Shown in pieces: positions 41,001 to 53,462 of a DNA stretch of 64,000 nt (position 1 is the stretch's first letter; every line of letters starts with the position of its first letter). The translations under genes and the position numbers were made by a program. The notes below the pieces were generated by a model, which saw only the letters and a list, made by a program, of their open reading frames with translations, was not told the origin of the DNA and ran no database searches. Origin of the DNA: Macrolepiota albuminosa (Eukaryota > Basidiomycota > Agaricomycetes > Agaricales > Agaricaceae); NCBI GenBank assembly GCA_027475525.1, contig JAMWFC010000062.1, positions 248,001 to 312,000 of the forward strand, written 5' to 3'.

Positions 41001-41451
41001 GATGGAAACACAACGTAGATGCAAAAGAATTTTAGACTCCACCCTGCTGCTGAATCGGCAGGCATGACAACTGGCTTTATCCATTTATACTAAGAGACTC
41101 AGCAACAAGACATTGTCTCACCCCAGACTAAGTCGGAAACACATCAAGTATGTTATATTACATTGTATATCTTGTTTGAATTACTAATGATGGCTGGTTG
41201 TGGCAAAACATTGTTTTGTCTGACTCAGAGGAAACTCTGAACTAAAGGGGTAGAATAGTATCTAAGCCAAAAAATTGTAAATAATCAGATGACATACAAC
41301 TGTATCCTGGCTTTATAATGATACATAGATCATGTGATTTGAACAAGAACTTGCTGATTAAAAAATCAAACAAAATATTCAATTATTGAAGCAGTTTTTT
41401 AACCCACTTTAATTTACTTTAATTTTCATATCTAGTACTTAATATGGCCTC

Positions 41452-41560
41452 CATTTGCCTTTATAACTGCTTTGATCCTTCTAGGCATGCTCTCTATAAG
41501 GCTTTGGCACACCTCTGGTGATATTTCATTCTACTTCTTGATCACTCTCTCCTACAACTC
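41452..41560 (-). pseudogene. Tc1 transposase, C-terminal end
   Basis: The minus strand reads NEISPEVCQSLIESMPRRIK, AVIKANGGHIKY-stop. This is the typical end of fungal Tc1/mariner transposases (SMPRRIQAVIKAKGGHTKY type). Confidence 0.8.
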
Positions 41561-42298
41561 TGTCAGGTTCCGCTGAATCGGGGGCTTTCCGGGAAAGCGA
41601 CGCCCTTACGATGCGGACTTGATCTACGGATACTCGGGTGTCTGGAACTCCGGGGCTGGGACTCCGGGGTTCAAGACGAGGACAGGGTAATCCCGGGAGA
41701 GGGGACTAGAGTCCGGGGGTTTTGGATGAAAGTGGCTGGGAGTTAGAGGGGGTCGAGTCGTGAACCGGAGGTTCTAAGACGAGACCAAGTTAGTAACTTA
41801 AGAGTCGCGAAGTGCGTACCAAACTTATAGCACGCGAATGCTAAGGCGTGCCAGTCGAAGCGTACCAAACGAGGCGTACCAGTCAAACAAAAGGGCACGC
41901 AATATCCAAGTAACAGTTATGCAATATCAAGACTACCGAATACAACAAGGGACTACGCTATAAGTACTACGGGATCGGGTCTCGGGGTTCCGGGATGTCT
42001 GGGATGGGTTCCGGGGGTTATTGAGTAGCGGCAGGGGCTGTATACCGGGATCGCGCGTGTGGGGCGCGCGATCAATTGGCGCGGATGGAGCCGTGATGCG
42101 TGATGCGTGATAGCCGGCACGAGTCGCGTGATCTGGTCGTTGATCGGGGCTAGTGATGGCTGATGGCGGTCCTTGATGCGCGTGATGGCGGTGTCGGCGG
42201 TCGTGATGGCGGGGCGTGTCCTGTGGGGTCGGAGGGAGGGTCCCGGAGGGTGTTCCGGGGGTGTCCCGGGGTGGGCCCGGAGGGGAGGGGTCGTGACA
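41561..42298 (-). repeat. 3' LTR of E2
   Basis: Plus-strand ends are TGTCAGGTTCCG and GGGGTCGTGACA. It contains a palindromic CGCGCGTGTGGGGCGCGCG and several GTGATGCG-type short repeats. Plus-strand transcription of the antisense gene could start here. Confidence 0.95.
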
Positions 42299-42314
42299 TC
42301 ACCCCCCCCTCAGC
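42299..42314 (-). promoter_or_regulatory. polypurine tract of E2
   Basis: Read on the minus strand, GCTGAGGGGGGGGTGA abuts the 3' LTR. Confidence 0.75.
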
Positions 42315-42424
42315 GCCGAGACCCTCCGAGGCGCGCGTAGCCGGTGGTTCGGACCGGGGGTCAACCGTGGGATCCGGCGCCTGACCTGCCACGTATCGAA
42401 AAAAATTTCCCATCAAACTCAACC

Positions 42425-44181
42425 ATGTCGCGAACACCGACGCATTCGCCGACGCCCCCTCAAACGAACGAGGTCGCGCCCCTCATGGCGTGGGAAGCCC
42501 GGGACGCGCGTTACCGGGCTCGCCTTGACCGGGAGCGCGTGGCGGCGCTTGTGGAGCAGCGTGAGTACTCCCGCGCCGACCCCTTACCCCACTGACCTTT
42601 CCTTTTCAGAACAACGCAACGTTCCGGCCCCGGAGGCGGGTCCCAGCCGACTCCCGGAGTCAATTCCCGAGGCTGGCCCCAGCGCCCCCCCGGAGCCCTC
42701 TCCGAGTCGCCCCGCGCCGACTTCCGCGCGAATGACCGTACGCCCTCCCCGTCCTCAGCCCCCTCCTCGCCCGAGATTGCCTGCCCCTCGTTTCCGCCGC
42801 TCCCGGATGGCGATAGGGACCGTGGCCGAGGTCCCGGAGGGCCAACGTGTCGCGTGGGCGGATGCCACGCAGGAGCTATTCGAGGAGGCCCTGGAGAGGC
42901 TCCGGGGACTGCCCACTCACGCTTGGTGCGTGAATAACGGTCCGGTGAGTTGTGCCCTTACCTAGGTTCCCTATTGCTGACTTCGGTGCAGTGCTTGCAC
43001 TGCGCCCGCCGGGGGGTGCTCTGCACCTTCGAGGTCCCAAGCCCCTCGTCCCGCCGGGACACGGCCGTGTGCGAGGCTTGCCGCCTCAATCACGAGCGCT
43101 GTTCCGTGTCGGCGCTGTGGAGGGCGCGTTCTGTCGCCCGGGAGCAGGGATGGCCGCTGGGGGGAGTTACCCGGAGGATGGAGGTGGAGGAGCGTGATTG
43201 GGTGGCGGAGCCGGCGGGGGAGCCGGTGGAGCCGGTGGGGGAGGGGCCTGCAGCGCCCGTAGAGGTGTCCAGCGGGGGATCGGGGAGGCGGGGGGTCGTC
43301 CGGGTGGGGGGCCGGGGCCGGCCCGTGGTGTTGATCACGCGCCGGGCCCCTCGGTCCGTTGCCCGGGGGCAGGGGGGCCACCTGGACAAGGGGAAGCGGC
43401 GGGCGTCGCCCAGCCCCTCCCCGGGGCCCTCCAAGAGGGCGCGCCTGCCCTTGGAGACCCCGTCTCCGGTTTCGCCCCCGCGCCTGTCCCCAGCAATCTT
43501 CTCTCCTTTGTCCGGGGGGCTCCTGGCAGGCGACGCCGAGGTCGCGCGGGAACAGGCCGAAGGGGGCCGCGGGGAGGAGATGAGGGAGGAAGTGGCGGCC
43601 GGGAGGGTTCCGGAGGGGGATCGGGGGGAGGGGATTCGCCGGGACCTGGAGGAGGCCAGGGTCGCCCGGGGAGAGGCAGAGGCGGAGCTGGAGGCGCTGC
43701 GAGCCAGGTTGGGGCAGGGAGTGGGGATCCCAGAGAGGGTCACCCCGGGGCAGGAGCTGGTGGAGGGGCTGCGCCGCGATGTGGTGATCGCGCGCATGGC
43801 CTCATTGAGTGAGTCTCCTGTCATCACTTGTCCCCTTTGCTGACGTCTCCAGGCTGGGCCCGGGAGCACCGCTCGCTCCTGGACGGGGCCGCCGTGGCGC
43901 TGGCTGCGTTGCAGGAGGGGCAACGCCCAGAGCTGACGACCCCCGGGGTGGAACGCGGTCTCGATCTCCTGGGGCGGCTGGTGGGGGCCCACCGGCGAAG
44001 GAACGTGCCTGCCCCGGGGTCCTGGTTCGAGCGCGTACTGGACGAGGGTGAGCCCCTTCCGTCCTGGGATGCGCTGGCCGAAGAAGTGTGGCGGGAGCAG
44101 GGTCCAGGGGGGATGGGGGAAGACTTCTGGGGTTGGCCGAGGGGAGGGGAGGGTGAGGGTAGCTCGGGGCCCCAGCTCTAG
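42425..44181 (+). CDS. antisense zinc-cluster/coiled-coil protein gene carried inside E2
   Basis: Four exons (42425-42560, 42610-42944, 42992-43808, 43853-44181) join in phase through three short GT-AG introns (GTGAGT donors; TTTTCAG, GTGCAG and CTCCAG acceptors), giving 1617 nt and 538 residues. The N-terminus is Pro/Arg-rich. Then CLHCARRGVLC, 15 residues, CEACRLNHERC: C-x2-C-x6-C-x15-C-x2-C-x6-C, the spacing of Gal4-type Zn2Cys6 clusters. A basic KGKRRASPSPSPGPSKRAR (possible nuclear signal) and an acidic, probably coiled-coil part (RRDLEEARVARGEAEAELEA) follow. The tail contains WAREHRSLLDGAAVALAAL and ends SSGPQL. It runs opposite to gag-pol and stops 163 nt from the pol end. Function is unknown; a DNA-binding or dimerising nuclear protein is inferred. 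Confidence 0.75.
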
Positions 44182-44344
44182 GGGTGCCGTTTTTCTTGTT
44201 GATTCCTCGTTATCTTGACCCGTAGCTGTAGTATACTGTAACTGTAGTAAAATGTATATACTTATTCGCCGTGGTAAAAGAAAAGATGATGTAAGTAAAG
44301 TAGCGGGGAAGCTGGGAAGAGTACCTTGCCCAGAATCCGGGGTA

Positions 44345-45300
44345 CTACTGTGAAAAAAGGGTAAAGAAGGGGTAAAATCTTAGAAAGAGAAAGCAGAAAG
44401 TATACATGGGAGTTGAATCCCTACTGAGCCCAGAGGCGGGGGTTACGCCCACTATTGCCGTCTGTGAGTCCTGCGCCCGGGGGGGTCGTTTCCCGGGTGC
44501 CGTTGTTGAAAGTCCCGGAGTTTGTCGAGGGCGCCTTCGAGGTTTCGGCGCGGTTCCCAAGTGTCGTCTTCCGGGCCGTATCCCTTCCATCGTACGAGGA
44601 AATGGGGTCGTCCACGAGGTTCCGGGAGTCGAGGATGTCTTCAACCTCGTAGTGGTATTCGTCCTCGACCTCGACCGGGGGAGGGGGTTCGGGGCGTCGT
44701 TCGGGAAAGGGTCCGGGGGGTGTCGTTCCAGGAGGCGGACGTGGAATACCGGGTGCAGACCTTTTAGTCCCGGGGGGAGCTCGATCTTGTAGGCGTGGGA
44801 TGAGACCTTCTTCAATATTTTGAACGGGCCGAGGCGCTTGTGATCGAGTTTTGGGGAGGGCCGGCGGGTGCGGAGGTGTCGTCGATCTAACCATACCTTT
44901 GTCCCGGGGGCCCAGTCGGGGGTGTCTTCCCGTTTCCGGTCGGCGTGTTTCACGTAGGCCCGGTTTGCGATGTCGATCTCCTCCCGGAGAAACTCGTGCA
45001 GGGATTGGAGATCCCGGGCGACCTCATGGGCGGCGTGCGACGGGATGTCCCGGAGCGAGAGCGTCAGTCGAGGGTGGTATCCCTTGTTGGCAAAGAAGGG
45101 CGATACCCCGGTGGCAGAGTGCGACGTGTTGTTGTACGTGAACTCAGCCAGGGGGAGCTCGGCGCGCCAGTCGTCCTGCAAGTAGTTGACGTATAACCAG
45201 AGGTACTGCTCGAGGGACTGGTTGACCCTTTCGGTTTGGCTGTCGGTTTCGGGGTGGTAGGCGGTAGAGAGGTTAGTTTTACTTCAAGTGCCTTACACAG
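44345..45300 (-). CDS. E2 integrase C-terminal part and chromodomain
   Basis: The frame starting upstream reads [19 protein letters not shown] (after a 1-nt shift at about 45277 from the main pol frame). It continues [42 protein letters not shown] and [14 protein letters not shown]. The chromodomain starts [13 protein letters not shown] and continues, in another frame after about 44605, [17 protein letters not shown]. Two apparent 1-nt indels in such a young element may be sequencing errors. Confidence 0.8.
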
Positions 45301-47265
45301 GGAAGTCCAAAACTTGGACACGAAGAGGGGACCACGGTCGGAGACGATGTCGTCCGGGAGTCCATGTTTGGCGAAAACGTGCTCGAGGAACAGCCGGGCG
45401 AAGTCCGGGGCGGTATCCGTGGTGTGACAGGGTAGGAAGATGCCCTGTTTGGTCAGCCTGCACACAACGACGAGAATAGCATCGAACCCTTCAGATTCCG
45501 GGAGCTCGACGATGTGGTCCAGAGATATTGAGGACCAGGGGCGTCGTCCGACCGGCAGGGGTTTCAGGAGTCCGTACGGTCGGTGTCGGGGGACCTTGGC
45601 CCGGAGGCAGGGCTCGCATGATCGAATGTAGCGGGTCACGTCCTTCTTCAACCCTGGCCAAAAGTAAGTCCGGGAGATGAGCTGGAGGGTCTTACGTATT
45701 CCAGGATGTCCCCGGAGCTTGTGGTCGTGGTGTTGACGGAGGACGTCGTAGCGAAGTCGGGCGTGATCCGGGACGTAGATGCGGCCGTCCCGGAGGAGGA
45801 GTTTTTCGTCGGGGGACAGGGAGAAGGCGGGGTCCCGGTCGGTTCCATCCGGGGGGTTGCGGGGGTCGTGATCGGTGAAGTACTTGTCTCGGGGGGCGCG
45901 GCGAATCTGACTCAGGGTCCCTTCCTCGTTTAAGATCAGTAAGGCATTCAAATGTTCGGGAGGGATCACCACGCGATGATTGAATGCATTACGTTCCGCC
46001 TCGAACGACTTCTTGGGGTAGACATCCGGTCGGCGGGTGAGGGCGTCGGGCTTGGCGCCAAGTCGTCCCGGGCGGTATTGGATCGTGAAGTCGTATTCCG
46101 AGAGGATCTCGGACCATCGGGCCTGCCGTCGACTGAGTTGCTTGGTCGTGGTGAAGTACTGCAGGTTATTATGATCCGAGTAGACCTGGATCCGGTGTCG
46201 GGCTCCCTCGAGGTAGGCTCGCCACTGCTTGAAGGCTTCGACGATGGCGAGAAGTTCCTTGTCGTAGATGTCGTAGTTGAGCTCGGCGTCGATCATGGAC
46301 CGGGTGTAGAAGGCGACTGGCCGGGGCTCCCCGCCGCCAGGTTCCATCTGCGAGAGGATCCCGGCGATGGCGTAGTCGGAGGCGTCACATTCCAGGATGA
46401 TCGGGAGGGCCGGGTCGTAGTGCCGGAGTACCGGGGCGACTGTGAAAGCCTCCTTGAGCAAGTTAAAGACGCTCTGGCACTTACTGTCCCAGTTCCAGGC
46501 GATGTCCTTGCGCGTGAGCCGGTTGAGGGGTTTCGTAATCCCGGAGTAGTTGTCTATAAACCTCCGGTAGAAGTTAGCGAAACCCAGGAAGGACTGTACT
46601 TCCTTGACGTTCCGGGGCTGCGGCCAGTTGACGATGGCCTCGACCTTGTGGGGGTCCATGCGAACGCCATTCGGGGATACTATGACGCCAAGATACTCAA
46701 CCTCTTCCGTATGGAATGAACACTTCTCGGGCTTGGCGTGGAGATTGTGCTCCCGGAGGCGTTCGAGGACTTGCCGGACGTGCTTCTGGTGATCCTCCTT
46801 CGAGTCGGAATAGATGAGGATGTCGTCCAGGTAGACTATCACGAAGACGTCGCTCATGTCGTGGAAGATGTCGTTCATGAAGTATTGGAACGTGGCGGGG
46901 GAGTTAGTCATTCCGAAAGGCATTACAAGGTACTCAAACAGACCATACCGCGTGCGGAACGCGGTTTTCCACTCGTGTCCCGGGGCGATGCGGACGTTGT
47001 TGTAACCGGAGCGGAGGTCGATCTTCGTGTAGACCTTGGCACTGCGAAGCCGATCGACCAGATCGCCGATGAGCGGGAGCGGGTAGCGGTTCTTCTTGGT
47101 GATCTTGTTGAGTCCCCGGTAGTCGACACAGAGTCGGAGCGAGCCGTCCTTCTTCTTGGCGAATAGAACCGGGGCTCCGGCGGCGGAGGCGGAGGGTCGG
47201 ATGAATCCCTTACCGAGCATTTCGTCGAGGTAGTCCTTGAGAGCCCGGAGTTCGACCTCCGACAT
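45064..47265 (-). CDS. E2 reverse transcriptase-RNase H-integrase
   Basis: One open minus-strand frame. [56 protein letters not shown] (YLDD). RNase [31 protein letters not shown]. The integrase finger is [11 protein letters not shown]...CEPC; the core is [20 protein letters not shown] and [15 protein letters not shown]. After KALEVKL (about 45280) the frame is lost by one nucleotide. It copies the element RNA into DNA and inserts it. Confidence 0.9.
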
Positions 47266-48334
47266 GTTGTAGACCTTGCCGAAAGGGGGGGTGGCTCCTT
47301 CCTCGAGGTCGATGGTGTGATCATAGGGGCGATGAGGGGGATCTCCTTGGCGTCTCCTTCGGAGAATACGTCAGCGAACTCGTGATACTCCGGGGGAACT
47401 ACTTCTCGGAGGATTTGCTCCTCGGTTTTTGTTCCGGGGGAATAGCGTCCCCTCGTAGGTGTTCTTCCGGGAGAGAAGGTGAGGTGTGCAGCTGAAACGT
47501 GGGAGTCCCTTCCCTCATGAGGCGGGCGAAGGGGGCGGCCCCAATGATCTTGATGTCGAGTGCGCTCGGGTCGGTCGGGGTCGCGGAGGCATCGGCCGGA
47601 GCGGGTGTGACGCGTGTCTGAGACCGGCAGGGGTAGTTCGGCCCTTTGTACTTGTTCCGAGGAATGTTTGGGGGTCGATCAGGGGCCTTGAGGTCTCGGA
47701 CGGGCGTGGGTGAGGCATGCGCGGGGGGCGCGGCAGTCGTCCCGGGGGTGTCGGGCGTCGGGTCGCCTCCTAGGGCTCGGAGGTGCACGGCGGTCGAGGG
47801 GTGGTCTTCGGGTCCCGGGAAGGTCATGGTGAGCGTCCTCCAATCGATGTCGGGGTTCGTGTCGCGCAGCCAGGGCAGTCCCAGCACCATCGGGGTCGAT
47901 TCGTGAAGTCGCGTGACCAGGAAGTCGGAAGTGAACTCGTAGTTGTTGTCCAGGGTCACGCGTCCCGAGTGAGACCTTTGGATGGGGCCGGAGGAGGAGG
48001 GGGTGCCGTCGAGGCGTTGCAGGCGGAGGGGCTGGTCGAGGGAGTCGTGGGGGAGGTCGAGAGCGTCGCTGATGAATACTCCGGTGGCTCCGCTGTCGAT
48101 AAGGGCCGATATCGGTCCCGGGGCGCCGTCCAGCCTGGCATTGATGACGAAGGATCGGGACGAGCGGGACTGGAGTCCGGGGGTGGTGGGGGCTCGTCCG
48201 GGGGGTCCTTCGGGGTTGGTTTTGAGGAGTGGGGGATGTCGAAGGGGAGTTGCTGGTCGTCGGGGGTCGGGTCCCGGGTCAGGCGAAGGGTGAGGTGTCG
48301 CCAATCGATGCGGGGGTTGGTGTCTCGGAGCCAC
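47266..48334 (-). CDS. E2 second retropepsin domain and linker to RT
   Basis: The minus strand reads [19 protein letters not shown], then [16 protein letters not shown] (catalytic DSG, about 48090), [20 protein letters not shown] and [18 protein letters not shown]. The Pro-rich linker and [14 protein letters not shown] follow. A frame change near 47400 leads into the region [20 protein letters not shown] that starts RT. Confidence 0.8.
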
Positions 48335-48600
48335 GGGAGCCCTAGGACCAGGGGTGCGGAAGGGTGAAGTTTGGTCACCAGCATCCGGAGGGTGTGAGTC
48401 TGTCCGTTGGCGAAGGTAACGGGCATACGCACAAAGTGGGTGATGTCCCCCGCCGAAGAGGCGTCTCCATCAAAGAGGCAGAGTTACCGGGACCGGGAGT
48501 CGCTGGGCGGGTTCCGGGGCGAGGGTAGACCATGCTTCGTCGATGAAGTTGTCGGTGGCGCCACTGTCGACGAGGGTGTTGAGGGGAGTTCCAGAGGGGG
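47956..48600 (-). CDS. E2 first retropepsin domain
   Basis: The minus strand reads PLNTLVDSGATDNFIDEAW (catalytic DSG at about 48560). After a frame change near 48475 it reads [19 protein letters not shown] and [18 protein letters not shown]. Order and spacing match the second domain about 465 nt downstream, so protease has been duplicated in tandem. Confidence 0.75.
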
Positions 48601-49912
48601 TGAGGCGGGTTTTGAGGAGGAGGGAGTGCGAAGAGTGGGAGGGTAGGTAAGCCGTGAGGGTGTCCTGTATGAGTGTCGTAGAGCGAAGGTGTGAGACCGG
48701 GGCGGAGAAGACGTCGGGGTCGATTCCGCGATTTAGGGCGTCTTCCGGGTCTAAATCGCCGGGTCGTTTTCCGAATACTCGTAGGTAGCGTCCTCCCCTC
48801 GAAGGTCCAGGTGGCACGTCCCATGACCTGTCGTTTGGGGCACTCGGAGATGAAGTGATCTTTCTCACCACAGAGTATGCAGACGCCCTCCCTTCTCCGT
48901 CGTTCCTGCACATCCGTCGGGACCTCGATCCAGGGTTGTCCCTTCTTTTGAAGCCGGTTGGCTCGGAGGGCCTCCTCGTCCCGTTCGTCGTCGAAATCGA
49001 AGTCTTCGGGGTCTCCCGGGGGTTCCTCGGGGCTTGGCGCGTCGCCCGGGTCTTGGGTGGCCACGGCGGCGTTGAGCTGGGCCTGGGGGCGGGTGCCGCT
49101 GCCGGGGTTAGCATTGGGCGGGCCGCGACTCACCGGGGGTCGGCCGCCAGGGAACGCGGGGGGACCGGGGTTTCGACCTTGAGGGTTGGGAGCTTCGCCG
49201 GAGGGCCAAGGGGGTCCTCCTCTGGGGTTCCAGGGGGGTCGGGAGTTCGAATACTCGCTGCGGTCTTCCCAGTAGCGCTGGTCATCTGCATGACGAGGGC
49301 CTTGTATCCGTCGTAGGAGGGTTGTTTCGGGGCGAGTCGGAGGACGTCCTTGATACGTTGTGGGAGGGCGCGGCGGAGGGCGTACCGGAGGGCGCTGTAA
49401 TTCCAACCTGTCTCGTAAGCTTCCTTTTCAAAACGTACGATGAAGGTAGTGAAACGTTCTTCAGAGCGCATCCGGAGGTTGAAGAGGTTGTCCTCGGCCT
49501 CGGCCACGGTGTCGTATATCCCGAATTTCCCGGAGAACTCGTCGACGAAGGCTTGCCAGCGAGCGAGTGCCGGGTTGTTGGGGTCGAACTGGATGAGGGC
49601 CATGTAGTGATCGAAGGCGATCCCCTGGAGGTACGACGCGGCAAAGGCCACCCGGGAGCTGTCAACCTGAAACGTGAGCGGCTTTGCCTGAAACGTATTA
49701 AGACACTGAGTGAGGAAGGTACGCCATTTTCGGGGGTCCCGGCCCGTGAACGCATCAGGTTTCTGAATGTCTAGGCGTCCTTCGCGGGCGAGGGCGTCGC
49801 GAGCGTCGTCCGGTCCGGCAGCGTTACGGGGAGGGGGGCCAGCGTTGTAATAGTAGTAGTAATGATTACCCCCCCCTCCTGAGGAGGAAAAGCACCAAGG
49901 GCGGGGCCCCAC
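48600..49912 (-). CDS. E2 Gag capsid and zinc knuckle
   Basis: Capsid: KPDAFTGRDPRKWRTFLTQC, FAASYLQGIAFDHYMALIQF, DEFSGKFGIYDTVAEAEDNL, FEKEAYETGWNYSALRYAL. The zinc knuckle CILCGEKDHFISEC (C-x2-C-x4-H-x4-C) is at about 48860-48900 in a different frame. At least one frame change (between 49130 and 49400) separates capsid from knuckle. It forms the particle and packages RNA. Confidence 0.8.
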
Positions 49913-50178
49913 CCGCCGGGAGGTCCTCCTCCGGGCGGCTCACCTGGGGGTCCACGCCCGGGAGGCCCGTTGTCCCAAGGGGGTTCGTTCCTGCCAGGAG
50001 GGGGGCCGGGTCTCCACGCCGGGAGTGGCGGAGGTGGAGGGCCTGGGGGTCGTCCTCGAGGTTCAGCTGGGGGTGGCGGAGGCGGTCGGGGAGGGTTCGG
50101 CGGTGTCGGGTCGGGCGGAGGGGGGTTAGGTGCTGGGTCGGGTGCCGGGTTGCGCGGGGGACGTTCGTTCCGGGAGGG

Positions 50179-51477
50179 TCAGGCTTGCATCGGAGGTCGC
50201 GGGGGGTTCCGTAGGTCGAAGTGGGGTGGCGGATCGCGGCGGAAGTTGCGTTCCGGAGGGACCGGGGCGGACGTGGCGGGCGGTGCTGGTGCCGGGGCGG
50301 GCGCGGGCGCGGGACGTTGTTCGTTGTTATCGCGCGTGAGCTCGTCAATGTAGCATAACGTGTCGTCCGTACTAGGGGTGTCCACCCGGGCTGTACCGGG
50401 GTTCGTCGGGGCCGGGGGTCGGGCGTTGTCTGTTCGCGGGAGGGGTTCCAGGGGTCTTTGAGGCTGTCCCCAGGTCTCGAAGGTACTAGGAACGGAGTTA
50501 GCCCTGCAGCGAGTTGACAAGCCTACCGTGCGAGCAGCGGGTTGATCGAAGAGGCCTCCCGTCGGGTTGAGGGACCGTAGTATGGCTGAGGCGTTCTGCC
50601 GTTCTTCCCGTTGCCGTTGCTCCGGAGTGGGGACCGTGGGGGCTGCCGGGACTGCTGGGGCCGGTTCCGGGGGTTCCCGTCGAACGTGAATCGAGCGACC
50701 TGGGTCCGCGGGGTCGTTGAGGGGTCGAGGGGAGGGGGACGCGTGGACTTCGTCGAGCAGTTGCTGTAATTCTTCCCGGAGGATCGTGTTGCGCCTATAC
50801 TTTACCATGGTTTGCTCCGGGAGTTCTCCTCGCGTGAGGCGATCCCCGAATTCGACCAGGCAGTGAGCCCATTCCTCCGGAGTGCCTTCGAAGTCGTCGT
50901 GCCCGAATTCCACGAGCAGCGTCCTCGTCCGTTGCGCGAAGTCCTCCGGTGAGATCCTGAGGGAGCGGAGTATCTCGTCCCGTTGCCGTTCATACTCCTC
51001 GAGGCGTCGTCGTCCCATTGGCGAGGGAGGCGTTCGAGCGGGTGGAGCGGCGGCCGGGTGATGACGAGGGGGGTAGTCGGGGTAGGGGGGTCCTCGGGGT
51101 TCTCGGGGTTGGGGGACGGGGCGCTGGTAACCGTAGTAGGGGGTGGGTGCAAAGGGGCCCTCGCTGGGGGGAATCGGGCGAGGCCCACTGGGTACAGGAG
51201 GGGTCTCCGGCAGGCCCCCGGGAATGCTCCGGTACGAGGGGACCTCCACGGGTCGTGCCATGGCTAGGTTGGGCGGAGGGGCCCAACTGGCTGAGGGCCC
51301 CAGATCATAGAAGGATGGGTCGGGGGCCCAGTGGCGGTGGAGGTACTGAGGTTCGTATGGGAGGGGTGGGTAGACAGGGCGGGGGGTCTGTGCGGAGTAG
51401 TGGTCGGGTACCGGGCGTCCGTAAGGGTCGGTCTGGTACCCCGTGGGGTAGTAGGTGTGAGTATACGTAGCCATCAA
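50179..51477 (-). CDS. E2 Gag N-terminal, Pro/Tyr-rich part
   Basis: A 432-codon frame starts 30 nt inside the 5' LTR edge (MMATYTHTYYPTGYQTDPYG). It is rich in Pro, Arg and Tyr, with a helical stretch ILRSLRISPEDFAQRTRTLL, EEWAHCLVEFGDRLTRGELP and TILREELQQLLDEV. It ends in a Pro-Ala-rich tail. The following 270 nt to the capsid frame are Gly/Pro coding in mixed frames, so the link to capsid is unresolved. Its place directly after the PBS argues it is the start of Gag. Confidence 0.65.
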   Translation of the reverse strand: MMATYTHTYYPTGYQTDPYGRPVPDHYSAQTPRPVYPPLPYEPQYLHRHWAPDPSFYDLGPSASWAPPPNLAMARPVEVPSYRSIPGGLPETPPVPSGPRPIPPSEGPFAPTPYYGYQRPVPQPREPRGPPYPDYPPRHHPAAAPPARTPPSPMGRRRLEEYERQRDEILRSLRISPEDFAQRTRTLLVEFGHDDFEGTPEEWAHCLVEFGDRLTRGELPEQTMVKYRRNTILREELQQLLDEVHASPSPRPLNDPADPGRSIHVRREPPEPAPAVPAAPTVPTPEQRQREERQNASAILRSLNPTGGLFDQPAARTVGLSTRCRANSVPSTFETWGQPQRPLEPLPRTDNARPPAPTNPGTARVDTPSTDDTLCYIDELTRDNNEQRPAPAPAPAPAPPATSAPVPPERNFRRDPPPHFDLRNPPRPPMQA

Positions 51478-51494
51478 GAACGGTGTAAGGAAAG

Positions 51495-51506
51495 AGTCTT
51501 GATATT
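51495..51506 (-). promoter_or_regulatory. primer-binding site of E2, self-priming type
   Basis: On the minus strand AATATCAAGACT lies 1 nt from the 5' LTR. The complementary 12-mer is inside the LTR (plus-strand AATATCAAGACT at 51870-51881), the Tf1-like arrangement also seen in E1. Confidence 0.7.
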
Positions 51507-51507
51507 A

Positions 51508-52245
51508 TGTCAGGTTCCGCTGAATCGGGGGCTTTCCGGGAAAGCGACGCCCTTACGATGCGGACTTGATCTACGGATACTCGGGTGTCTGGAACTCCGG
51601 GGCTGGGACTCCGGGGTTCAAGACGAGGACAGGGTAATCCCGGGAGAGGGGACTAGAGTCCGGGGGTTTTGGATGAAAGTGGCTGGGAGTTAGAGGGGGT
51701 CGAGTCGTGAACCGGAGGTTCTAAGACGAGACCAAGTTAGTAACTTAAGAGTCGCGAAGTGCGTACCAAACTTATAGCACGCGAATGCTAAGGCGTGCCA
51801 GTCGAAGCGTACCAAACGAGGCGTACCAGTCAAACAAAAGGGCACGCAATATCCAAGTAACAGTTATGCAATATCAAGACTACCGAATACAACAAGGGAC
51901 TACGCTATAAGTACTACGGGATCGGGTCTCGGGGTTCCGGGATGTCTGGGATGGGTTCCGGGGGTTATTGAGTAGCGGCAGGGGCTGTATACCGGGATCG
52001 CGCGTGTGGGGCGCGCGATCAATTGGCGCGGATGGAGCCGTGATGCGTGATGCGTGATAGCCGGCACGAGTCGCGTGATCTGGTCGTTGATCGGGGCTGG
52101 TGATGGCTGATGGCGGTCCTTGATGCGCGTGATGGCGGTGTCGGCGGTCGTGATGGCGGGGCGTGTCCTGTGGGGTCGGAGGGAGGGTCCCGGAGGGTGT
52201 TCCGGGGGTGTCCCGGGGTGGGCCCGGAGGGGAGGGGTCGTGACA
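51508..52245 (-). repeat. 5' LTR of E2
   Basis: 738 nt, one visible difference from the left LTR (CTGGTGATGG here, CTAGTGATGG there). Confidence 0.95.
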
Positions 52246-53160
52246 AACTCATGCACTTCTTTAGAGGGTACCTCATACTCCAAAAGTTTGTGCTTGATGT
52301 AAACCCAAAGGTGTTCAATGTGATAGAGGTTAGAGGATTGGGCAGGCCAAGATATTGCAATAATGTTGTTATCAGAAAGCTAGGTTGTTGCCCATTGAAA
52401 GGTGTGTTTTGAGTCATTGTCCTGCTGAAAATATTGTTCTTCCTCTTCAATTTCCAACTTTTCAAAGCTTTCTACCACTCTCTCATTCAAAATCTCACAA
52501 TACTGTGCAGCATCCATCTTCTCCTGAACTTCTATGAGCTTCCCTACTTCATTCCAACCCATGCAGCCCCATACCATTAAATTGTTTCCTCCATGCTTGA
52601 CAGTTGGTATAGTAGTATGGTCAGATAGTAGTTCTCCTGGAATTTTCCACACATATACCTTCTCATTTGATTCAATTCAATTAATCTTTGTCTTATCACT
52701 CTACAAAACCCTTTTCCAATCTTCTACTGTCCAGTTTTTTATGATACTGAGCAAACTTGAGCATGAGAACTTCCTTCTTTGTTGCTAAGCAAAAACCTGC
52801 CTTCTTCAATGCATTTCTGACTGTCTGAGGATTGACAGGACTAGAAATGACAGAATTAATGAACTGTGTAGCTTGAACAGCATTATCCAGCTTCTCAGTA
52901 GTAATTTGACAAATAATAGACTATTTATCATATACTGTAAGCTTGGAAGGATGATCTCCAGGATGATTCTCTGTGTTGCTCTTCAGTTCTTTGCTGATTT
53001 TCTCTACAGTGCCCTTTCCCAGGCCAGCTTTTGCTTGGATTTGATGCTGAAAATATCCCTTATTAAGGAAAGAAACAACAGAAGAGCAATTGATAGCAGA
53101 AATAGGTTGCATGATAGTGGTAAAGTGTCAAAAAGGAAGTTGAACATGTCAAATTAGTAT
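52246..53160 (-). pseudogene. Tc1 transposase, main part
   Basis: Right of E2 the minus strand reads SDKTKIN (first Asp block, WSDETK type), KVYVWKIPGELLSD, LMVWGCMGWNEVGKLIEVQE, FQQDNDSKHTFQWATT (second Asp) and IEHLWVYIKHKLLEYEVPSK (catalytic Glu in IEHLW). Trp codons are changed to TAG or TGA (e.g. before SDKTK). An N-terminal helix-turn-helix-like stretch lies near 52930-53110. It is inactive. Confidence 0.8.
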
Positions 53161-53462
53161 AAACAAGGTCACATGACATTGTTTATACTTCCCACAAGGT
53201 GTTTCCATCTTCTACTGCTGAAAAGTATTGAGAAAATATGAAAATTAAAGTGAGTCAAAAAACTGCCTCAATGATTGAATATTTTGTTTGATTTATTAAT
53301 CAGCAAGTTCTTGTTCAAATCACATGATCTATACATTATTATAAAGCCAGGATGCAGTTGTATATCATGTGATTTTTTATGATTTTTGCTTAAGTAAGTG
53401 TTGCACACCATGTGAATCTTTCTAAAAAGGCCAAACGTTGATGCAGTTTTTTGAGCCAGTGT

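Follow-up and report, generated by a model that had tools for sequence, protein, structure and literature searches.

The window (the whole 64,000-nt stretch of DNA analysed here) holds a Ty3-type retrotransposon, E2, on its minus strand, with a second, intron-bearing gene on the plus strand between the end of pol and the 3′ LTR (Table 1). The two LTRs are 738 bp each and 99.86% identical, with one mismatch by self-BLAST, and a 5-bp target duplication, GAGTT, lies outside both of them. Minus-strand frames match the Pfam families Retrotrans_gag, RVP_2, RVT_1, RT_RNaseH, Integrase_H2C2, and SH3_Tf2-1, in the order gag, protease, reverse transcriptase (RT), RNase H, and integrase. The rve family falls under the Pfam cut-off in this frame-broken copy, in which gag-pol is spread over several frames, and the end of pol looks chromodomain-like when read by eye. 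With these repeats and this duplication, E2 is a young Ty3-type element, as the preliminary description had it.

E2 is probably self-primed, because its PBS (51494–51507, minus strand) and its LTR (51881–51870) are complementary over 12 nt. Self-complementarity between the LTR and the bases on the PBS side is characteristic of self-primed elements of the Tf1 type. E2 resembles Tf1/sushi-type Ty3 elements in this complementarity and in the SH3_Tf2-1 end of its integrase; unlike E2, the known self-primed members of that group, to our knowledge, normally carry gag-pol alone. In E2, the region 47399–49129 (minus strand) contains two tandem protease-like DSGAT stretches, each followed by a 12-residue stretch; the two pieces are 45–51% identical where aligned, and RVP_2 matches only the second. 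The whole element lies between the arms of a 159-nt inverted repeat (41270–41428 and 53229–53387, 87% complementary), which are perhaps part of something older that received the E2 insertion. Rfam has no match within 41400–52400.

The second gene is antisense to pol: its start codon is 126 bp inward of the 3′ LTR, and its stop codon faces the end of pol, i.e., the two are arranged tail to tail. Joining its four exons gives a protein of 538 residues, which confirms the spliced plus-strand frame initially proposed for this interval. Two alternative acceptors of intron 2 in the window also keep the frame, but with loss of cysteines. The leader, 126 bp long, shows less divergence than the coding exons next to it and has an A/T block right before the start codon.

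Table 1. Features of E2 and of its antisense gene, in window coordinates
Feature	Position	Strand	Basis or detail
3′ LTR of E2, 738 bp	41561..42298	-	self-BLAST; GAGTT target duplication
Leader, putative 5′ UTR/promoter of the antisense gene	42299..42424	+	contains polypurine tract (on -); promoter role putative
Exon 1	42425..42560	+	begins MSRTPTHSPTPP
Intron 1	42561..42609	+	GT-AG; branch-point-like CTGAC
Exon 2	42610..42944	+	
Intron 2	42945..42991	+	phase 0, right before the first cysteine
Exon 3	42992..43808	+	six-cysteine module, basic patch, coil
Cysteine module, residues 158-194	42992..43102	+	C-x2-C-x6-C-x15-C-x2-C-x6-C; variable positions 165, 167, 169, 174, 189
Basic patch, residues 290-309	43388..43447	+	KGKRRASPSPSPGPSKRARL; NLS-like; similar patch in most Termitomyces rows
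Intron 3	43809..43852	+	
Exon 4	43853..44181	+	conserved C-terminal part (WAREHR..LLDG, HRRRN.PAPGSW); stop 44179-44181
Spacer, AT-richer	44182..44421	.	between the convergent 3′ ends of the antisense gene and pol
pol: RT, RNase H, integrase, SH3 end	44345..47370	-	split over frames; Pfam RVT_1, RT_RNaseH, Integrase_H2C2, SH3_Tf2-1
5′ LTR of E2	51508..52245	-	self-BLAST; GAGTT target duplication
Probable self-primer, 12 nt in the LTR; predicted 5′ end of genomic RNA	51870..51881	-	complementarity to bases beside the 5′ LTR

The antisense gene across copies of the element

Copies were collected in three ways. First, a search of the 100-Mb genome with the DNA of the gene gave at least 63 pieces (40 of 657 candidates scored), which fall in the window and 39 other places; these near copies (L009–L047) were picked by similarity to the antisense gene, so the divergence of the gene among them is an underestimate. 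Second, four distant copies (L048–L051) were picked through P0001, a Termitomyces protein. Third, the 40 best pol matches (96–100% identity, 40 of 702 candidates scored, window included) form a sample picked independently of the gene. In this last set, the gene is present by coordinates in 24 copies, and its protein is matched in 15 of the remaining 16 (in 1-kb pieces); at least part of the gene is therefore found in 39 of the 40, the exception (L056) having 100 N, i.e., an assembly gap. Judged from this sample, the antisense gene belongs to the element family and is nearly universal among its copies. The hits lie at the same place in relatives of E2, and a one-off insertion is rejected; of the three outcomes named at the outset as undoing the proposal, this one and a lack of frame conservation across copies were checked, and neither undid it.

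All 39 near copies match as far as the inner edge of the LTR, and an LTR was detected beside 37 of them (all except L020 and L021). In the distant copies, pol is 96–100% identical to that of the window over the stretch from RT to integrase and runs in the opposite orientation to the gene; the part of pol retrieved at L048 is unbroken where that of the window is interrupted. Downstream of a more distant version of the gene, at L088 and L089, pol is 81–86% identical, again tail to tail. It is very improbable, in our view, that the gene is a passenger, whether a recently captured host gene or a nested insertion. Its introns are host-like and six-cysteine proteins are abundant in fungi, as such a passenger would have it, but the gene accompanies almost every pol-chosen copy, is under constraint, and is related to genes of several Termitomyces, one of which shows the same arrangement. 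Recent capture is largely refuted; ancient capture is possible.

The introns were compared in an alignment of 40 rows on the window (the window and the 39 near copies). Introns 1, 2, and 3 have GT-AG boundaries in 39, 39, and 35 of the 40 rows, respectively, which bears out the three canonical short introns of the preliminary description. Their interiors and lengths vary (49–52, 46–48, and 44–46 nt, with one row longer by a 77-nt duplication in intron 1 and one in intron 3), and a branch-point-like CTRAY site is found close to the acceptor in 38 of 39, 39 of 39, and 35 of 35 of the GT-AG rows. Departures from GT-AG are point changes in L018 and L015; in L022 and L040–L043 they are gaps, truncations, or larger deletions. 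Clean intron loss was seen in none of the 40 rows and four distant copies.

Constraint on the protein is apparent from dN/dS across E2 copies, a check proposed from the start. Relative to the window, the spliced frame has a dN/dS of 0.20–0.34 in 38 of the 39 copies and of 0.50 in L042, a truncated copy; the two shifted forward frames have values of 0.77–1.92, and the best reverse frame values of 0.34–0.66. The antisense frame is open over 529–556 codons in 11 of the 40 rows, window included; the full frame is missing in the other 29, in some through 77-nt duplications arising in assembly and in others through ordinary decay. All four distant copies are open over 539–560 codons, have all three introns, and encode proteins 63–76% identical to that of the window. 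By these comparative measures, the antisense frame is a real gene and not a product of chance, because GT-AG boundaries and CTRAY sites are kept within variable introns and dN/dS is low. We give next to no credence to the converse, i.e., that the sense strand is the coding strand and the antisense frame its by-product. The minus strand is open over 429 codons in the window (43090–44379), and over 359–433 codons in 7 of 15 intact copies, but in the other 8 this sense stretch shrinks to 257–292 codons while the spliced antisense frame is still whole. Moreover, for all 39 copies dN/dS is higher in the best reverse frame than in the antisense gene, the GC-rich third positions of the antisense frame (0.81–0.87) suit a coding role for that frame, and sense-strand coding leaves the intron pattern unexplained. 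Sense-strand coding was rejected on the shrinking stretches and the higher reverse-frame dN/dS.

Divergence of the gene relative to its element

The antisense gene is hypervariable in comparison with the LTR and pol of its own element, an observation absent from the preliminary description. Sliding identity along the four distant copies is 85–98% in the LTR and 86–100% in pol, versus 67–85% in the gene and 62–76% in the end of the gene and the spacer, with the shifts falling near the start codon and within the spacer. The gene has a median dS of 0.37, versus 0.16 in pol (703 pairs from 38 rows, leaving out L042 and L045, which have too little pol), and its value is the larger in 641 pairs. For L031, the gene dS is 0.58 versus a pol dS of 0.073; for the closest copies (L009, L010, L019–L022, L026, and L027), pol dS is as large as gene dS or larger.

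Assembly collapse or repeat chimeras might produce a uniform pol beside a variable gene. The window has 18 exact 77-nt tandem duplications and 25 of the 39 near copies have 62, and these units are most likely an assembly artefact, i.e., unmerged 77-base overlaps. We nevertheless consider this explanation improbable, since the contrast persists in copies without such duplications, the frames of the distant copies are intact, and divergent alleles of the gene are present in Termitomyces assemblies too. Copies without 77-nt duplications number 14 of the 39 near and three of the four distant ones; a clean set of 12 comprises eight of these 14, the three distant copies, and the window (six were excluded: two that contain N, two near-duplicates, and two carrying a deletion). 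Mean pairwise difference in the clean set is 3.8% in pol (11 copies), 9.9% in the leader, 16–22% in exons, 31–35% in introns, and 27% in the spacer, i.e., divergence in the antisense gene is about four to six times that in pol. The duplications of the window lie at 1554, 5371, 6355, 7447, 8563, 10073, 12310, 14077, 16017, 16857, 18405, 21510, 21669, 26161, 32585, 34914, 36759, and 39398; they break frames, including those of the neighbouring element E1, and none is in E2.

The alleles appear to be mosaic, because neighbouring sites are more compatible with one another than permuted sites, as recombination predicts. None of 1000 permutations reaches the observed value among 30 distinct copies (six copies dropped, duplicates merged), and none of 200 does so in the 12 clean copies. 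The mosaics could partly be assembly joins.

Distances between copies in different parts of the element were also correlated (35 copies, 200 permutations). LTR and pol distances are correlated with each other (r 0.39–0.50). Distances in exons 1–2 follow those in U3 and the leader weakly (r 0.14 and 0.28), and distances in the C-terminal half follow pol and LTR (r 0.19–0.44); the gene is therefore not wholly unlinked from the element. Distances in the cysteine module track none of U3, U5/R, and pol (r −0.05 to 0.08, not significant). This lack of covariation argues against co-evolution of the module with its own LTR and against a repressor matched to that LTR; host targets are still candidates.

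The encoded protein and its relatives

The six cysteines have exactly the spacing first claimed for them and form two C-x2-C-x6-C halves, i.e., the Zn2Cys6 pattern. The usual Zn2Cys6 linker is 5–12 residues. Like fungal Zn2Cys6 factors, the antisense protein combines the two halves with a basic region and a predicted coiled coil downstream; unlike them, it has a 15-residue linker, a coil that lies far downstream, and a profile score below the cut-off. Against Pfam Zn_clus (PF00172), it has an E value of 0.019 and 15.5 bits versus a cut-off of 21, with the match out of register, and 6 of 24 relatives match Zn_clus at E up to 0.1 (best 0.0052). Membership in Zn_clus is not supported by profile, the score being under the curated cut-off. 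The term “zinc-cluster” in the preliminary description thus holds for the motif and fails for the profile. Pfam hits on the protein at E up to 1 include neither the TRP28 domain nor bZIP, and a sequence search of the PDB with the cysteine module gave no match.

The module was matched in 77 of 80 sequences. Eight were dropped for stops, frame breaks, gaps, or substituted cysteines (as in L024, L080, and L085), leaving 69 rows, 53 of them distinct in DNA, in which the invariance of the cysteines reflects the choice of rows. In these rows, residues 165, 169, and 189 take 8, 9, and 8 different amino acids, respectively, and most of their neighbours are nearly fixed. A codon model of the module gives an omega of 0.21 overall, with no codon reaching the threshold of 3.84 for positive selection (largest value 2.4); posterior values, which vary with a coarse grid, were set aside. 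Placed by its distance from the first cysteine, residue 165 would match the base-contacting Lys18 of Gal4; this match may serve as a lead only, the Pfam match being weak and out of register.

Downstream of the module, the claimed basic patch is present and NLS-like (Table 1). The acidic, coiled-coil-like tail of the preliminary description needs qualifying: residues 345–420 are mildly acidic (19 D/E versus 13 K/R), the matching part of P0001 is predicted with low confidence to form long helices, and a conserved C-terminal part then follows. The AlphaFold model of P0001 (24 Termitomyces sequences; mean pLDDT 59.6, pTM 0.30) has short helices by the first cysteines, a disordered linker, helices at 255–331 and 337–395, and a helical end, all at low confidence. 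Foldseek found no convincing fold match to this model (best E 5.0), and a PDB search with the whole profile gave weak matches, mostly to coiled coils (best E 0.037).

A search with the single protein found one relative, a Termitomyces protein, and a search with region 138–232 found none at E up to 1. With a six-sequence profile that includes P0001, at least 37 proteins were found among the best 7991 candidates, all from Termitomyces, with E values from 4e-154 to 4.5e-12. In an alignment of 14 sequences (12 Termitomyces proteins and two proteins of this genome), most rows share the cysteine module, the GKRRAS..GPSKR patch, and the WAREHR-LLDG/HRRR end. In their annotated form, P0002 and P0024 have no module, the second half of the module is missing from P0022, and P0010 has tyrosine in place of one cysteine.

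One relative, P0008 of Termitomyces sp. T112, is 727 residues long, and over the final 199 of these it is similar to integrase read from the reverse strand: that of L048 at 50% identity (E 4e-40), those of L088 and L089, and that of the window at 44726–45178 (E 2e-31). P0008 runs from the antisense gene into the back strand of integrase, and therefore the same tail-to-tail order is present in another fungus, in this one case. The public gene model of P0008, which fuses the two, is probably an annotation error.

Known systems and a possible role

Plant Ty3 elements and deltaretroviruses are already known to carry antisense accessory genes. Retand, Grande, and RIRE2 of plants carry antisense ORFs with a TRP28 domain (PF04195), and a role of these ORFs in regulation is proposed in PMC11963269. 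As in E2, where 39 of the 40 pol-chosen copies have the gene, the ORF of Retand-type elements lies between pol and the 3′ LTR in nearly all copies, and its product is a proposed DNA-binding regulator of unknown function (PMC11963269). Unlike E2, these are non-chromovirus elements of plants with a TRP28 domain, which is absent from the Pfam hits of the E2 protein, and the accessible text of PMC11963269 makes no mention of introns, versus three in the E2 gene. HBZ of HTLV-1, likewise antisense, is spliced, derives from the 3′ LTR, and was shown to inhibit Tax-dependent activation (PMC1459196). It shares with the E2 gene a place beside the 3′ LTR and splicing, which in E2 is supported by comparison of copies; it differs in being a retroviral bZIP protein with its first exon in the LTR. 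HBZ transcripts start in the LTR (PMC1459196), and those of the E2 gene would start in the 3′ LTR or the leader. In yeasts, the copy number of Ty1 is controlled by element-derived antisense RNA or truncated Gag (PMC7175516). Ty1 and Tf2 resemble E2 as fungal LTR elements with element-derived antisense transcripts, which E2 would also have; their antisense products are presented as RNAs rather than as a spliced coding gene in the 3′ region, and those of Ty1 begin in gag (PMC7175516).

The best reading is that the E2 gene would be a regulator analogous to the Retand antisense ORFs and HBZ, by analogy and not by sequence relation. Among the papers listed in the literature survey (titles and the starts of abstracts, and passages on fungal elements), none describes an antisense gene for a protein in an LTR element of a fungus. 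The antisense gene of E2 bears introns, is constrained, is nearly universal in sampled copies, is present in Termitomyces, and is hypervariable. It makes the purpose of antisense retrotransposon genes testable in fungi.

The fixed place of the gene, its constraint, its retained introns, and its Termitomyces relatives support the proposal of an accessory protein that was captured or evolved; that overall reading stands as regards a fixed, constrained accessory gene and falls short as regards the Zn2Cys6 profile score. We lean toward an accessory nuclear regulator that acts in trans, is transcribed from the 3′ LTR or leader, has its introns removed, and has variants that are favoured when rare. 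Transcription would probably run from the 3′ LTR or the leader toward pol, and the three short introns would be spliced out, as the comparison of copies supports. The introns would persist because the sense RNA is the template for new copies, and they cannot be spliced out of that strand. The product would be a nuclear protein, as the NLS-like patch suggests, with a six-cysteine module that probably binds zinc, a long coiled coil that may mediate pairing, and a conserved helical end. It would act in trans on nucleic acid or chromatin, most likely regulating element expression or copy number; the DNA-binding regulator of the preliminary description is a candidate role of this kind. High divergence and mosaics would stem from recombination between elements and from favoured rare variants, which might escape repression or recognition keyed to common ones.

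Alternatively, the protein may act on the host, through nuclear import, chromatin targeting of integration, or silencing suppression, with its variation reflecting an arms race with host factors. The independence of the cysteine module from LTR and pol and the deep allelic divergence agree with such a role, and the NLS-like patch and the chromodomain-like end of pol (read by eye) fit one at chromatin; however, no codon is significantly positively selected and no host target is known, and we regard this alternative as rather unlikely. More tentatively than the trans-acting regulator, the gene could also be a hypervariable cassette for identity or immunity, i.e., an element-encoded recogniser in the nucleus, with negative frequency dependence maintaining its allelic diversity and template switching reshuffling alleles among copies, comparable to the repressor regions that differ between otherwise similar phages. 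If the gene were such a cassette, variation at residue 165 may change what is recognised.
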